DNA from: an uncultured Clostridia bacterium
Lineage (GTDB): Bacteria > Bacillota > Clostridia > Christensenellales > Borkfalkiaceae
Length of the DNA stretch: 61,507 nucleotides
Direction of reading: 5' to 3'
Assembly: GCA_947625605.1 (NCBI GenBank)
Contig: CANQOY010000007.1
Span: forward strand, 1 to 61,507
Shown: positions 18,115 to 28,821 of the stretch, in pieces
How positions within the stretch are numbered: the stretch's first letter is position 1
How the letters are laid out: every line of letters starts with the position of its first letter
Translations under genes and position numbers: made by a program
The notes under the pieces: model-generated
What the model was told of the DNA's origin: nothing
Database searches by the model: none
What the model saw: only the letters and a program-made list of their open reading frames with translations

Positions 18115-18143
18115 TTGACATCGTATATAAATTGTATTATACT
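18115..18143 (+). promoter_or_regulatory. SigA-type promoter of the xre-pot operon
   Basis: TTGACA (18115-18120), a 17-base spacer and TATACT (18138-18143). Expected transcription start is near 18150, directly before the first copy of the palindromic operator described next. Confidence 0.87.
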
Positions 18144-18156
18144 TTCCGCGTCGTCT

Positions 18157-18233
18157 GTTTATGATTATTAAACTTTTGGTTTAGTTTTACGAGAGTTTGA
18201 TAAAAAAAGGCGAAAAGTTTATAAATACTAAAC
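18157..18233 (+). promoter_or_regulatory. Duplicated GTTTA-N7-TAAAC operator candidate
   Basis: Two identical-form palindromes GTTTA-N7-TAAAC occur at 18157-18173 and 18217-18233, exactly 60 bases apart, between the predicted transcription start and the regulator's ATG. An extra GTTTA at 18179-18183 makes a TAAAC-N5-GTTTA overlap with the first copy. Location and symmetry suit binding by the dimeric XRE-cupin protein encoded just downstream. Binding is inference. Confidence 0.6.
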
Positions 18234-18250
18234 GGGATCGGGGGCGGAAG

Positions 18251-18784
18251 ATGGAACTCGGTGCAAAACTCAGGGATATGCGTCAGCGGAAAGATCTCAC
18301 GCAGGAAGAGCTTGCGGATCGCTGCGAGCTCACAAAGGGATACATTTCCCAGCTCGAAAACGACCTCACGAGCCCCTCTATCGCGACGCTGTGCGACCTG
18401 CTCAACGCGCTCGGCAGCAGCCTTTCCGACTTTTTCCGCGAGGAGACGGACGAGAAGATCGTCTTTTCGGAGGCGGAATACATCGAAAAACAGTCCGAGG
18501 GCATGATCTGGAATTGGGTCATCCCCAACGCGCAGAAAAACATGATGGAGCCCGTGCTCGTGGAGCTCGAAGCGGGCGCTTCGACGCAGGTGGACTTTCC
18601 GCACGAGGGCGAGGAATTCGGCTATGTCTTGCAGGGCAGGATCGGCATCATCTGCGCGGGAAAATGCTGGATCGCCAAAAAGGGCGAGAGTTTTTACTTT
18701 ACGTCCGACCGCGAACATTATATTGCCAACAAGGGCAAGGGCAAGGCGAGATTCCTCTGGATCTCCACGCCGCCCAATTTCTGA
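18251..18784 (+). CDS. XRE-family regulator with cupin domain
   Basis: 177 residues from the ATG at 18251; the frame is open to 18197, but the family homology begins here. The N-terminal helix-turn-helix spans about 5-62 (KLRDMRQRKDLTQEELAD, then KGYISQLEN). The C-terminal cupin is at about 105-175 (EEFGYVLQGRIGIICAG), usually a small-ligand sensor. HTH-cupin proteins of the PuuR type regulate polyamine genes. Here it heads a potABCD operon, so it probably senses polyamine and controls import. The palindromes in its leader suggest autoregulation. The next gene starts 70 bases downstream with no terminator between. Confidence 0.9.
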   Translation: MELGAKLRDMRQRKDLTQEELADRCELTKGYISQLENDLTSPSIATLCDLLNALGSSLSDFFREETDEKIVFSEAEYIEKQSEGMIWNWVIPNAQKNMMEPVLVELEAGASTQVDFPHEGEEFGYVLQGRIGIICAGKCWIAKKGESFYFTSDREHYIANKGKGKARFLWISTPPNF

Positions 18785-18853
18785 TACGCGCGAAAAACAT
18801 GCCGGCGGGACCGCCTGCCGGCGCGAAGATAAAACTTTCATACGGAGGACGCT

Positions 18854-20377
18854 ATGGCGGAACACATCATCGAACTGCAAAATGTCACCAAGTATTACGA
18901 CGACAATCTTGTCATCGACAATGTGAGTTTCTATGTAAACAAGGGAGAATTCATCACCTTCCTCGGCCCGTCGGGCTGCGGCAAGACGACGACCCTGCGC
19001 ATGATCGCGGGTTTCGACCTCCCCACGAGCGGAAAGATCCTCCTGCACGGAGAGGACATCTCCCGTCTTCCGCCCAACAAGCGCCCCGTCAACACGGTAT
19101 TCCAGCGCTACGCCCTCTTCCCCCACTTCAACGTGTTCGAGAACATCGCCTTCGGCCTCAAATGCAAACGCGTCCTCAACACCTACCGCAACGCGCAGGG
19201 CGAGGAGTACACCAAAAAGGAACGGCTCAGCAAGAAAGAGATCGCGGAGAAAGTGCGCAAGGCGCTCGAAGTCGTGGACCTCGAAGGCTTTGAGAAGCGC
19301 TCGATCTCCACGCTCTCGGGCGGGCAACAGCAGCGCGTCGCCATCGCGCGCGCCATCGTCAACGAGCCAGAGATCCTCCTGCTCGACGAGCCCCTCGGCG
19401 CCCTCGATCTCAAAATGAGGAAGGAGATGCAGATCGAGCTCAAAGAGATGCACCGCCGCCTCGGCATCACGTTCATCTATGTGACCCACGATCAGGAAGA
19501 GGCGCTCACCATGTCGGATACCATCGTGGTCATGTCGGACGGCGTCGTCCAGCAGATCGGCACCCCTACCAAGATCTACAACGAACCCGCAAACACCTTC
19601 GTCGCCGACTTCATCGGAGAGAGCAATATCATCAACGGGACGATGGTCTCGGAGAAGCTCGTGCGCTTTTGCGGCAAGAATTTCGTCTGCCTCGACGAGT
19701 TCGAAACGGGCGAGCAGGTGGACGTCGTCGTCCGCCCCGAAGATATCGCCATGTGCGCACCCGAGCAGGGCACGCTCGTGGGACGGGTCATCTCCGTCGT
19801 GTTCAAGGGCATCCACTACGAGATCACGGCGCAGCTCGGCAAATACGAGCTCGTCATCAACTCCACCGAGAGCCGCAAGGTCGGCGACATCATCGGCATG
19901 AAGATCGCGCCGGACGGCATCCACCTCATGAAGCCGAAGTACACGACCAACGTGTTCGACGGCGTCATCACCAAGCACAACACGGTGGAATTTGCGGACG
20001 GAGAGTTCGAGTGCGACGTCACCCAGCTCTATCCCGGCAGTCACATCGACGAGGAGGAGTACCTCATCACCGCTTCGGGCGAGAAGATCGACCTCACGGG
20101 CGTCGAAGTCAGGGTGGAAGTCGGCCTGTACGACATTACCATTTCGGACGACGCCGAGGCGGGCGGAACGACGGGCCACATCATCTCCATCATCTACAAG
20201 GGCGACCACTACCGCCTGATCGTGCGCACCGAGAAAGAAGAGGAGGACTTTGTCTTTGCGACGGACGACCTCTGGAACGAGAACGACCTCGTCTCCGTCA
20301 TCATCCCCAAGGATAAGATCAAGCTCTCGCTCAAACAAACGGAAGAGAAGAAGAGATTGGGAGGGAACGAGGCATGA
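18854..20377 (+). CDS. potA: Spermidine/putrescine ABC transporter ATPase PotA
   Basis: 507 residues, longer than the usual 350-380. It is the cytoplasmic ATPase of the polyamine importer. Walker A GPSGCGKTT is at 38-46, the ABC signature LSGGQQQR at 154-161 and Walker B ILLLDEP at 174-180, with the H-loop in VTHDQEE. About 20 residues are inserted between the Q-loop helices (around 107-126). The C-terminus carries two TOBE-like repeats: one with GRVISVVFKGIHYEI and one with GHIISIIYKGDHYRL. The second explains the extra length. CGGAGGACG precedes the ATG, and the stop overlaps potB by 4 bases. Confidence 0.95.
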   Translation: MAEHIIELQNVTKYYDDNLVIDNVSFYVNKGEFITFLGPSGCGKTTTLRMIAGFDLPTSGKILLHGEDISRLPPNKRPVNTVFQRYALFPHFNVFENIAFGLKCKRVLNTYRNAQGEEYTKKERLSKKEIAEKVRKALEVVDLEGFEKRSISTLSGGQQQRVAIARAIVNEPEILLLDEPLGALDLKMRKEMQIELKEMHRRLGITFIYVTHDQEEALTMSDTIVVMSDGVVQQIGTPTKIYNEPANTFVADFIGESNIINGTMVSEKLVRFCGKNFVCLDEFETGEQVDVVVRPEDIAMCAPEQGTLVGRVISVVFKGIHYEITAQLGKYELVINSTESRKVGDIIGMKIAPDGIHLMKPKYTTNVFDGVITKHNTVEFADGEFECDVTQLYPGSHIDEEEYLITASGEKIDLTGVEVRVEVGLYDITISDDAEAGGTTGHIISIIYKGDHYRLIVRTEKEEEDFVFATDDLWNENDLVSVIIPKDKIKLSLKQTEEKKRLGGNEA

Positions 20378-25126: not shown

Positions 25127-26236
25127 TCATTTCCCGAACATGACGCGCTCGCTCGAAAGAAATTTCGTCATGAGGAGCACGAGAAGCGCGCTGTATACGA
25201 AATTGAGCCCCACGCTCACAAGCGACTGCCACACGGGGATCTGCCCCGCAAAGAGCGAACCCATCGCGCCCACGGCGTTCAGAATGGGAATGCACACGAC
25301 CCAATCCCCCATCGTCGGCACAAAGGCGGAGACGATGGACAGGAGCATAAAGAGGATCATGATGACGCTCGTGTACGCCGAAGCCTCCTTCACCGAACGC
25401 GAGAGCGTGGAGACCGTCGTGATTGAGGCGACGATGAGCGGAACGAGGCTGAGGATGAGCAGGAAAATGAGCAGATAGCTCCATACGGGATACCCGCCGA
25501 ACGCTCCGAGGGAGACTCCCATGAGTTTCGGCATGGAGAGTGCGACGCCGAGAAAGCTCGATGCCGCGCCGATGGACGCGATGCAGGAGAGCGGAATGAC
25601 CTTTCCGAGGGCGATCTGGAAGCGGGGCGCGGACGTTGCGAGGATGGTGGAGAGCGTGCCGCGCTCCTTCTCCCCCGCCACCGATTCAATGGTAACTCCC
25701 ATGCATGTCGAGAAGATCAGGGTGACGATGAGGAAGGGAAGGAAGCCCGCAAAGAGCGTCCTGCCGATCTCCTCATCGCTCTTCACGCTCTCGGGGATCA
25801 CGGAAAACCGCATGCCGTAGCTTTCGAGCGCCGCACCCGCGATGGCGTAGAAGTTGCTGCTTTTTTCCTCTGCGCCGTTATAGACGATACGCACGCTGCT
25901 GTCCTGCGGAAATTCATCGAAGTTCTCCGAAAAGAGGAGTACGGCGGCCGCCTCACCGCGCTCGACTTCCGCCCGCGCGGCCTCCTCGTCTTCGAGGGGA
26001 AGCCATTCCACCGTGTCCCCCGTCGCGGCGATCGCCGTCTCGATGACGGAGACCGCGGCAGAGCTCCCTCCCACATATACTTTGTAGGCCTGCGGCTCTT
26101 TCTCTGCGTACATCGCCGTGCCCATGATGGAGTAGATGACATAGAGCAGAATGCCGGGGAGAAGCATGGTGACGATCAGCCGAGGATCGTGGAAGAAACG
26201 GTGAAATTCTTTCTTCATGAGGGCAATCAGTTTCAT
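25127..26236 (-). CDS. ABC-2 type transporter permease (NatB-like)
   Basis: 369 residues. An N-terminal membrane helix (about 17-37) is followed by an extracytoplasmic domain of about 130 residues. Then come about five membrane helices from about residue 170, including FLPFLIVTLIFSTCMGVTIESVAGEKERGT, here quoted for its ESVAGEKERGT loop, which is diagnostic of the NatB/ABC-2 family. Such permeases work with a NatA-like ATPase to export ions, lipids or small peptides. The start overlaps the ATPase stop by 4 bases. The C-terminal 25 residues have a paralogous remnant at 24144-24236. Confidence 0.88.
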   Translation of the reverse strand: MKLIALMKKEFHRFFHDPRLIVTMLLPGILLYVIYSIMGTAMYAEKEPQAYKVYVGGSSAAVSVIETAIAATGDTVEWLPLEDEEAARAEVERGEAAAVLLFSENFDEFPQDSSVRIVYNGAEEKSSNFYAIAGAALESYGMRFSVIPESVKSDEEIGRTLFAGFLPFLIVTLIFSTCMGVTIESVAGEKERGTLSTILATSAPRFQIALGKVIPLSCIASIGAASSFLGVALSMPKLMGVSLGAFGGYPVWSYLLIFLLILSLVPLIVASITTVSTLSRSVKEASAYTSVIMILFMLLSIVSAFVPTMGDWVVCIPILNAVGAMGSLFAGQIPVWQSLVSVGLNFVYSALLVLLMTKFLSSERVMFGK

Positions 26237-27009
26237 ACGATCTCCCCCTTCACCGCGCGGTAGATCTCAAAAAATTTATCTTCGAGCTGCATTTCGCCGC
26301 AGAGCTCTTGGAGCGTTCCCTCGGCGATGAGCCTGCCGTCGATGATGACGCCGACGCGGTCGCACAGCTTTTCGACGAGGGAAAAGATATGCGTGGAGAG
26401 GAGAATGCTCTTGCCCATCGCTTTGAGTTCGAGAAGAAAGTCGGTGACGACTTTGGCCGTGAGCACGTCGAGCCCGTTCGTGGGCTCGTCGAAGATGACG
26501 ACTGCGGGGTCGTGCACGATGGCGACGACGAGCGAGACCTTTTGGAGCATGCCCGTCGAGAGGTCCCCCACCCGCACGCCCCGAAAGCGGTCGATGCCGA
26601 AGCGCGAGAAGAGTTCCCGCTTGCGCGCGGCGAGCTTTTCTTTGGGAACGCCGTGCATTGCCCCGAAGAAGTCGAAGAGATAATCGGGCGTGAAGAACTT
26701 TTCGAGTTTGAGTTCGCTCGTCATGAAGCCGATCTTATCCCGCACCTTGTCGGGCTCTTTGACGACGGAATGCCCCGCGATGACGGCGTCGCCCGCGTCG
26801 GGTCTTATCAGCGTGGAGAGCATGCGGAGCGTCGTCGTCTTGCCCGCGCCGTTGGGCCCGAGAAGGCCGTAGATCTCCCCGCGGTACGCCGAAAACGAGA
26901 GCCCGTCCACCGCAATTTTGCGCGTCTCCCCCGTCTTTTCGATGCGCTGTTGTTTTTTGGAGAGCGTGAAGGTCTTTCTCAGCCCCTCCGCCCTTACGAT
27001 CTCTTGCAT
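26233..27009 (-). CDS. ABC transporter ATPase (NatA-like)
   Basis: 258 residues. Walker A GPNGAGKTTT is near residue 54, Q-loop region GFMTSE near 95, signature LSTGMLQK (a variant of LSGG usual in NatA/CcmA exporters) near 151, Walker B VVIFDEPTNGLD near 175, and H-loop STHIF. The DEPTNGLD and STGM form places it with exporters of the ABC-2 class, paired with the overlapping permease downstream. It is the first gene after the repeat array. No promoter of its own is obvious, so it may be transcribed through the array from the SPFH promoter. Confidence 0.93.
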   Translation of the reverse strand: MQEIVRAEGLRKTFTLSKKQQRIEKTGETRKIAVDGLSFSAYRGEIYGLLGPNGAGKTTTLRMLSTLIRPDAGDAVIAGHSVVKEPDKVRDKIGFMTSELKLEKFFTPDYLFDFFGAMHGVPKEKLAARKRELFSRFGIDRFRGVRVGDLSTGMLQKVSLVVAIVHDPAVVIFDEPTNGLDVLTAKVVTDFLLELKAMGKSILLSTHIFSLVEKLCDRVGVIIDGRLIAEGTLQELCGEMQLEDKFFEIYRAVKGEIV

Positions 27010-27049
27010 AAAACTCCTTTACTCCCCAATCTTCTCGTAGACAATAACT

Positions 27050-27812
27050 GCCCGATGAAACGACTGACCGCGATCTGCCTATGAAAGAGTAACAGCCTAT
27101 TCGTCTCACGGAATTTTCTTTTCCATTTTGAAAAGAAAATTCGTAAACTCGCTTGCGTCAGGCGGAATTCACTTCCGCCGTGCGCGACTCAATTTGCCGA
27201 ACCCTTTCGGCTCGTTGCCCGATGAAACGGCCGACCGCGAACTGCTTATGAAAGAGCAACGGCCCATTCGCCTCACGGAATTTTCTTTTCCATTTTGAAA
27301 AGAAATTCATAAACTCGCTTGCGTCAGGCGGAATTCACTTCCGCCGTGCGCGCCTCAATTTGCCGAACTCTTTCGGCTTGCTGCTTGATGAAACGACTGA
27401 CCGCGATCTGCCTATGAAAGAGCAACCGCCTATTCGCCTCATGGAATTTTCTTTTCCATGCAGAGAAGATTCGTGAACTCGCTTGCGTCAGGCGGAATTC
27501 ATTTCCGCCGTGCGCGACTCAATTTGCCGAACCCTTTCGGCTCATTGCCCGATGAAACGACTGACCGCAATCACCATATGAAAGAGCAACAGCCCATTCG
27601 CCTCACGGAATTTTCTTTTCCTCTTTGAAAAGAAAATTCGTGAACTCGCTTGCGTCAGGCGGAATTCACTTCCGCCGTGCGCGACTCAATTTGCCGAACC
27701 CTTTCGGCTCGTTGCCCGATGAAACGGCCGACCGCGAACTGCTTATGAAAGAGCAACGGCCCATTCGTCTCACGGAATTTTCTTTTCTATTTTGAAAAGA
27801 AAATTCGTGAAC
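27050..27812. repeat. Tandem array of ~165 bp hairpin-rich repeats (4.6 copies)
   Basis: Unit starts (at the GATGAAAC word) are at 27054, 27221, 27387, 27551 and 27718, giving periods of 167, 166, 164 and 167. The last copy stops at 27812, directly against the SPFH stop codon. Each unit holds three hairpins: GAATTTTCTTTTC / GAAAAGAAAATTC, GGCGGAA / TTCCGCC and CCGAA / TTCGG. Many copy-to-copy changes fall in loops. Period lengths that are not multiples of three and stops in all frames argue against coding. Copies 2 and 5 are nearly identical, which suggests recent duplication or conversion. Confidence 0.9.
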
Positions 27813-28754
27813 TTAGTATATGCTTCCCGTGCCGACGACGGGCTGGGCGTCGCGGTTGCCGCAGAGCACGACGAGAAGATTGGAGACCATTTGTGCCTTG
27901 CGCTCGTCGTCGAGTTCCACGATCTCCTCCTCGGAGAGCTTGTTGAGCGCCATCTGCACCATGGAGACGGCGCCTTCCACGATCTTCTGCCTTGCTGCGA
28001 TGATGGCGGAAGCCTGTTGCCGTTGGAGCATGGCCGCCGCGATCTCGGGCGCATACGCAAGGTGGGAAATGCGCGCTTCCAAAATTTCAATGCCCGCCAT
28101 GTCCGTGCGTTGTTGCAGTTCCCCGCGAAGTACCTCCGCGATCTCCTGCGCACTGCCGCGGAGCGAGGTCTCGTCGCCGTTCGTGGAGACGTCGTACGGG
28201 TACTGCCGCGCAACTTGGCGGATGGCGGCGTCGCACTGCGTGGAGAGGTACGCCATGTAATTTTCCACGTTAAAGACCGCCTTCGCCGTATTCGTGATGC
28301 GCCAGATGACGACGACGGAGATCTCGATCGGGTTCCCCTCTTCGTCGTTGACTTTCTGCTTGTCGTTGTTGAGCGTCATCGCCTTTAAGGAGAGCTTCCG
28401 CGCAAACCCCGCCGTCATGCCCCTTGCGGGATTGACCGCCGTGCAGAACGGGTTCACCCAGAAGAAACCGTCCCGCTTTATCGTACCGTGATATTTGCCG
28501 AAGAGCGTGAGCACGAATGCTTCGTTGGGCTGCAAGAGCTTGAAGCCGCCGCAAAGAAAGAGACCCGCGACGGTCACAAACACGCCGAGCACCATGAGCG
28601 CCGCAAACGCCGCGTTCTCGTCGAGAAGCACTGCGCCCACCGCAAACAGCGCGATCCCGCCCAAAATGACCGCGAGCACGACCGCAAGCATCATCCAGCC
28701 GCTTTTCTCGTGCGCGGGCCTCTCCGTGATCTTGTCGAAATCCTTAACTTCCAT
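27813..28754 (-). CDS. SPFH/band 7 domain membrane protein
   Basis: 313 residues. Two closely spaced membrane helices lie at about 19-44 and 50-73, followed by an SPFH domain ([20 protein letters not shown] around 75-95, then DGFFWVNPF, and [19 protein letters not shown] around 160) and a C-terminal helical coiled-coil segment with [24 protein letters not shown] (quoted only by its ends: AAAMLQ to IVEGA). SPFH proteins form membrane-bound oligomeric scaffolds. GGAGGAATATC precedes the ATG. The gene has its own promoter with overlapping TGATATCA palindromes. The repeat array begins at its stop codon. Confidence 0.93.
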
Positions 28755-28771
28755 GATATTCCTCCGATTTC

Positions 28772-28790
28772 TGATATCATTTTGATATCA
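28772..28790 (-). promoter_or_regulatory. Tandem TGATATCA operator candidate
   Basis: Two perfect 8-bp palindromes TGATATCA (28772-28779 and 28783-28790) start 11 bases apart, one helical turn, and overlap the expected transcription start of the SPFH gene. Tandem short palindromes are the classic target of MetJ/Arc-type RHH repressors, and an RHH gene lies in the same locus. Confidence 0.5.
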
Positions 28791-28792
28791 TA

Positions 28793-28821
28793 ATGCTATC
28801 ACAAAACCACCGCGCTGTCAA
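28793..28821 (-). promoter_or_regulatory. SigA-type promoter of the SPFH gene
   Basis: On the minus strand, TTGACA (28816-28821), a 17-base spacer and TAGCAT (28793-28798), 39 bases before the ATG at 28754. Confidence 0.78.

Follow-up and report, generated by a model that had tools for sequence, protein, structure and literature searches.

Introduction

MITEs are short, non-coding and dispersed elements. REPs, according to extracts of two papers (PMC3733652, PMC12306157), are palindromic and extragenic, occur in many clustered copies, and in some cases lie within 15 nt of a stop codon; the second extract also cites a report that E. coli REPs in this position down-regulate translation. BIMEs are described in an extract of PMC2817692 as regularly spaced palindromes with alternating orientation. 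REPINs with RAYT, in the extracts of PMC3116915 and PMC2817692, form genome-wide populations and are probably non-autonomous, and the pneumococcal BOX and RUP are, in an extract of PMC3049150, small interspersed repeats of a Gram-positive bacterium.

The window analysed here is a stretch of 61,507 nucleotides from an uncultured Clostridia bacterium of the family Borkfalkiaceae (contig CANQOY010000007.1, assembly GCA_947625605.1). It contains an array of hairpin-forming direct repeats between an SPFH gene and the genes of an ABC exporter. This array is one expanded member of a genus-specific interspersed family and not a mere local duplication. It is likely to be a locally expanded insertion of a hairpin-rich, REP/BIME- or MITE-like mobile repeat that is specific to the genus and probably non-autonomous.

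Comparison with described repeats

Like the REPs of the GTAG and CGTC super-families, in so far as the extracts describe them, the family of the array is palindromic, extragenic, multi-copy, clustered and found near stop codons. In contrast to REPs and BIMEs, neither its core nor its linker has a constant GTAG or CGTC tag, its unit of ~165 nt has three hairpins and is repeated head to tail in direct arrays in the sense of the gene, its stems differ widely between copies and species, and its own genome has no Y1 transposase. The tag counts in 120 cores are 2 for GTAG, 0 for CGTC, 1 for CTAC and 15 for GACG; the 62 nt before the core, again in 120 units, give CGTC 27, GACG 11, GTAG 3 and CTAC 2. 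Membership in the GTAG or CGTC super-family was rejected because a constant tag is missing from these segments, which stop short of the left foot of the terminal hairpin (H1). The alternating orientation of BIMEs, as the extract gives it, is likewise not seen, and within each group in the source genome all cores have one orientation.

The family shares with REPINs, as the extracts present them, genome-wide populations and a probably non-autonomous character, but it is not an inverted REP pair. Membership among the REPIN/RAYT elements was rejected as far as it was tested, because the Y1 transposase PF01797 has no match in the source genome (97% complete), is found in 15/61 genomes of the genus, and does not follow the element; several element-rich genomes lack it (e.g. 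G005, G006, G024, G031). The family resembles BOX and RUP, within what the extract covers, as small interspersed repeats in Gram-positive bacteria. It is short, non-coding and dispersed like the MITEs, whereas terminal inverted repeats joining its ends, a target duplication or a parent transposon were not seen.

The array between the SPFH and ABC exporter genes

The upstream gene (minus strand, 27813–28754) is an open reading frame for an SPFH/Band 7 protein of 313 aa (PF01145, E 2.4e-27), and its stop codon abuts the array. The downstream gene (minus strand, 26233–27009) encodes an ABC transporter ATPase (PF00005, E 3.7e-26) with a start codon 39 bases past the array, and an ABC-2 permease gene (minus strand, 25127–26236) comes next. 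The whole array (27049–27813) reads on the minus strand, as its flanking genes do, and consists of five modules of hairpin and linker that are separated by four cores, the order of modules being taken from comparison with relatives. TRF on the window gives a period of 167, 4.6 direct copies, and 88% matches. The cores start at 27154, 27320, 27484, and 27651, in steps of 166, 164, and 167 bases, so that the unit length is no multiple of three. The stop codon TAA of the SPFH gene (27813–27815) is followed by a single G and then by the first H1. The first-pass annotation, made from the letters of this stretch, had described a non-coding tandem array between same-strand genes that ends at the SPFH stop codon. 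The copy number, the spacing of 164–167 bases and the start of H1 one base past the TAA confirm this description.

Rather than as a unit of three hairpins, as first annotated, each unit is better read, in the sense of the genes, as H1, a linker of ~60 nt, and a core of 64 nt; the element begins with a hairpin and ends in linker. The core contains two hairpins, namely helix 2 and helix 3/4, the latter formed on the palindrome GGCGGAA/TTCCGCC. The H1 at the SPFH stop (27769–27812), found by inverted-repeat search and in the sequence, has perfect inner arms of 13 bp (27775–27787 and 27794–27806). Inverted-repeat search also finds the second H1 from SPFH (27602–27645) and the fifth (27105–27148). 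The third (27438–27478), with arms in part decayed, and the fourth (27272–27314), with a small deletion in one arm, are recognised from the sequence and by comparison of copies. The four cores, all on the minus strand like the hairpins, match the covariance model R1, which was built from 94 distinct cores: copy 1 at 27651–27714 (84 bits), copy 2 at 27484–27547 (82.7 bits), copy 3 at 27320–27383 (83.1 bits), and copy 4 at 27154–27217 (84 bits).

Two further features of the window lie outside the array. Upstream of SPFH (28753–28821), a promoter-like site TTGACA-17-TAGCAT stands beside repeated TGATATCA half-sites that resemble an operator. An AT-rich imperfect inverted repeat (18157–18233, with 33-nt arms that are 73% complementary) is present at the 3' end of the open reading frame 18137–20338.

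Folding of the unit

A single unit folds better than its dinucleotide shuffles on both strands, with z of −3.1 on the plus strand and −3.9 on the minus strand, and z is −3.8 with DNA parameters. The three hairpins per unit proposed earlier fold as described. The accompanying claim that loops vary while arms are kept holds less well, since hairpins 2 and 3 are nearly invariant and some positions of hairpin 1 do not pair in copies 2 and 3. Compensatory changes between the four full copies of the window are found at 0/52 predicted pairs, and some H1 pairs are broken, so that selection on structure is not proven by the window alone. Covariation is absent among these copies and present in the stems of different genomes.

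Over 110 of 120 units, the mean z of linker plus core is −2.57 on the sense and −3.00 on the antisense strand, and after shuffle correction 79/110 show no advantage of the sense over the antisense strand. By itself, the linker has no structure (mean z −0.36 and −0.34). The folding has no sense-strand bias, and RNA and DNA hairpins are therefore indistinguishable by it, also as regards the set of structured RNAs among the roles listed at first.

A genus-specific repeat family

The core is matched 18 times in the source genome (1.43 Mb, 37 contigs), on C2, C3, C5, C7, C8, C11, and C13, and 16/18 matches stand in groups of 2 to 4. Three other groups have TRF periods of about 211, 163, and 199 nt, and their H1 and linker sequences differ. 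A 65-nt query matches 19/61 genomes, all 19 within the 37 genomes of the same genus, and has no match in 24 genomes from other families of the order. R1 matches 69/101 genomes of the genus, with 1 to at least 52 matches each, and the other 32/101 are without a core match. Of 248 genomes sampled across the order, R1 matches 8, which are 7 of the 9 listed from the genus itself and one weak case elsewhere; it matches none of the 9 listed genomes from sister genera of the family. The weak match (genome G253, E 6.5e-5) has other palindromes around it on its short locus and was rejected as apparently unrelated. That locus (L202, positions 1–480, from another family) is dense in differing short palindromes with GCAATT/AATTAAC-like spacers, perhaps another repeat family.

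The pattern scan of genomes gave at least 118 matches. The relatives among the 80 of 118 matches listed are all uncultured Clostridia MAGs with isolate names starting with Lapin, from which a rabbit gut origin is inferred for them. The exact core pattern has 0 matches in the viral contigs searched. Rfam gives 0 matches at gathering score in the window, and its best match at the array has E 0.58 and reaches 19.4 bits, where the cut-off is 63. No paper matched a text search with two palindromes and the helix-2 hairpin, and nothing recognisably equivalent appears in the extracts of the literature on Clostridia repeats. The array counts below refer to arrays made distinct by identical sequence context; the genome sets overlap and a few duplicates may remain among them.

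Stems change while pairing is kept

In the alignment of 94 cores, helix 2 is paired in 95.7% and has both-side changes at 5/6 pairs, with variants such as GCCGAA/TTCGGC, GGCAAA/TTTGCC, GTCGAA/TTCGAC, and GTTGCA/TGCAAC. Over the whole core structure, 111 cells are changed on both sides compared to 30.5 in shuffles, and 0/500 shuffles reach 111; these figures are not probabilities, since related copies are counted as separate cells. Controls with slid partners in the core alignment give far lower values of both-side change. The search pattern fixes helices 3 and 4, and independent covariation therefore comes from helix 2 and the terminal hairpin only.

For H1, the foot that follows the stop codon served to place the left arm, and the GAG foot preceding the core to place the right arm, which took in 72 of 109 arrays and left 37 outside. 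At least 10 of 11 positions are paired in 52/72 of these arrays, with 23 different left arms. When partners were dealt anew in 500 trials, the number of such arrays averaged 6.1 and never exceeded 13; here too, related copies are counted separately and the figures are not probabilities. Mispairs in the terminal hairpin are G-T in 112 and A-C in 42 cases, and in the core 8 and 4; this excess of G-T was set aside, since the counts come from related copies in a crude alignment. The structural constraint on the stems is clear. Arm-to-arm copying of DNA could be an alternative keeper of intact palindromes.

The hairpins show further regularities. In the 3' arm, four pairs from the foot, H1 of the TCAC type mostly has one bulged base (9/10 distinct stems listed), and H1 with a TCG foot is mostly without it. 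The loops of H1 (e.g. L014, L016, L019, L045, L143) often hold other repeat families of the CCCACCCCTTGAGGGGTGGG type, the CTCAGTC..GACAGCTCCCC type, and the GTCATTTCGA..GAGAAATCTC type, as if they were insertion targets.

Copies in relatives and covariation, whose absence the first-pass annotation had named as counting against its reading, were both looked for and are both present. A simple recent tandem duplication without wider relatives would explain why the copies are 88% alike and show no compensatory change among themselves, but it is refuted by the dispersed copies in the source genome and the genus and by stems that covary between genomes, which leave it scarcely any probability. A DNA-level protein-binding array, BIME-like and serving chromosome organisation through a nucleoid protein, gyrase, or a hairpin-binding factor, would fit palindromes that fold on both strands and the regular spacing of arrays. 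However, a sequence-specific binder could hardly tolerate the wide variation of the terminal stem, many members of the genus have no matches, and the arrays depend clearly on the sense of the gene, so that a role of this kind is quite improbable.

Placement behind stop codons

Genes around the arrays were called by a codon-usage script, in loci that were selected for holding cores except for the SPFH and secY sets. All 153 arrays in the fetched loci are outside called genes. Of those in co-directional gaps, 63 have the sense of the genes and 14 are reversed; convergent gaps account for 22 and divergent gaps for 4, a further 32 have no downstream gene in the locus, and 18 no upstream gene. Among 109 distinct genes that are followed by an array in gene sense, the foot motif of H1 lies 0–4 nt past the stop in 65, against 22/510 control genes, and 5–9 nt past it in 12, against 13/510. 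The foot is farther away in 27 and missing in 5. The family is thus extragenic and downstream of coding sequence as REPs are, with 0/153 arrays in genes and the foot at 0–9 nt in 77/109.

A scan based on pairing finds a hairpin within 12 nt at 54/578 gene ends, array-adjacent ones included, compared to 7/504 gene starts and 6/578 random points. In the 22 convergent gaps, the co-oriented gene has the motif at its stop in 13 cases and the opposite gene in 2. Genes with their own terminator can have the hairpin behind the T run instead (e.g. L073, L087, L122). Read by eye, the left foot of H1 is mostly GTTTCG or GTTCAC, and several stops have apparent older remnants of left arms before the new left arm, which suggests repeated events at one place.

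A repeat targeted to the ends of transcription or translation could account for this placement. Its machinery would read the 3' end of a gene with polarity, set H1 facing the stop, and accept nearly any stem. No such targeting rule is known to us for REP-, MITE- or IS200-type elements, nor is stop-codon anchoring known as a defining feature of BOX and RUP. Targeting of this kind is unlikely.

Orthologous junctions, filled and empty

The SPFH set is the best 30 of 42 matching genomes, and the secY set the best 30 of 51. A fully paired hairpin stands at the SPFH stop in 2 of the best 30, namely the source genome and G012. Cores are found at the SPFH junction in the source genome only (four); the copy in G012 differs and its core is unrecognised by the profile, and G034 offers a matching empty site for it. 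The presence of the array between SPFH and the ABC gene is therefore lineage-specific. In the same set, L169 has the foot motif with 7 of 11 paired and is perhaps a decayed remnant, and L160 has it with 8 of 11 paired within an A/T run, where no element is seen. SPFH is directly followed by the ABC gene in 6/30, with a gap of −1 to about 75 bp versus 803 in the window. Over the whole set (L155–L184), the ABC ATPase comes after 655–1271 bp in 16/30, apparently with a further gene between, is adjacent in 6/30, and is not found in the locus in 7/30; in L155, the source genome, the array fills the gap.

At the secY-adk junction (SecY identified by PF00344, adk by its motif), 13 of the best 30 have a hairpin foot 0–11 nt past the stop with 10 or 11 of 11 paired, 9/30 are compact with 11–64 nt to the ATG of adk, and 8/30 are longer without such a foot; a gene-sense core is present in 8/30. 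The pta-ackA junction (PF01515, PF00871) is filled in the source genome and in G007. Where orthologous stops are filled in several species, their H1 stems differ.

A device that uncouples the exporter from SPFH expression, be it the attenuator that the first-pass annotation had offered among its options or a terminator, would suit strong hairpins between two co-directional genes. Nevertheless, the terminator-like site called in the array is on the plus strand only (27479–27495), no T run follows the hairpins on the minus strand, 28/30 orthologous SPFH junctions have no paired hairpin at the stop, and the family also follows further genes, among them secY and pta. This role must be regarded as very improbable.

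A cis-acting RNA element at the 3' end is another explanation, in which the hairpins stall terminating ribosomes or protect or target the 3' end of the mRNA, selection holds the copies, and dispersal is secondary. The anchoring in gene sense 0–4 nt past stops, the covariation of stems, and the secY 3' ends filled in 13/30 with differing stems argue for it, and so does the parallel with the stop-near E. coli REPs whose down-regulation of translation is cited in the extract of PMC12306157. By this analogy, the H1 of the window, 1 nt from the SPFH stop, would suit a REP-like effect on translation. On the other hand, the occurrence is patchy (SPFH 2/30, secY 13/30, 32/101 genomes of the genus without a core), 79/110 units fold no better on the sense strand, and the linker is unstructured. 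Such a cis function is rather unlikely as the primary explanation.

A probable mobile repeat and the search for a mobiliser

The family is short, non-coding, palindromic, dispersed, extragenic, clustered, and patchy across species, features that together characterise REP- or MITE-like elements mobilised in trans. A mobile, probably non-autonomous repeat thus remains the likely reading of the array, and among the roles listed at first the non-autonomous element fits best. In this mechanism, a short non-coding unit of terminal hairpin, linker, and two-hairpin core would spread within genomes and settle directly behind a stop codon, or sometimes a terminator, mostly in the sense of the gene. We infer that it spreads by transposition, probably in trans through a candidate enzyme that recognises hairpins, and head-to-tail arrays may arise by repeated insertion at resident units or by their duplication. 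The array of the window may slow the termination of translation or alter the decay of the SPFH-ABC mRNA, on the analogy of stop-near REPs, or it may be neutral.

The likeness of stems within genomes would be expected from spread or homogenisation inside genomes. The helix-2 hairpin is identical in 41/116 within-genome pairs versus 168/2141 between genomes, and an H1 arm in 21/164 versus 41/2895, in a comparison of the source loci and 80 named loci where some helix-2 strings of the source genome are shortened by the pattern.

No candidate mobiliser was found in a search that covered Y1_Tnp, RVT_1, and IS110. Besides the Y1 transposase, the reverse transcriptase PF00078 is present in 10/61 genomes of the genus, and IS110 (PF01548) in 11/61 at E <= 0.001 with 3 over the cut-off; neither is found in the source genome or follows the element. 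An autonomous parent was also sought by eye in six of seven loci with more than 600 nt from stop to core (L052 left out) and rejected, as no transposase was seen. In these six, the extra length is made up of other repeats, an XRE-like regulator among further small or misread frames, host genes that had been missed, and a stretch resembling a structured RNA. From the species-level empty sites, no duplication of a target site could be established. The negative searches of three families and the 14 reverse-oriented arrays count against the mobile reading. Gene conversion could also yield the likeness within genomes, and the hairpins at secY in many species could go back to one old insertion kept by selection instead of repeated insertion.

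Implications for the genus

The genomes are small, 1.43 Mb for the source genome, yet members of the genus hold up to tens of these structured repeats. As stems switch while the feet are conserved, R1 is a ready covariance model for annotation. The precise and oriented placement behind stop codons by a genus-specific family is a larger finding than the array alone, and its polarity is the distinctive feature. If the family is functional, it would be a widespread layer of 3'-end control at places such as secY-adk and pta-ackA. If it is mobile, the question becomes how the element finds the ends of genes with the right polarity.
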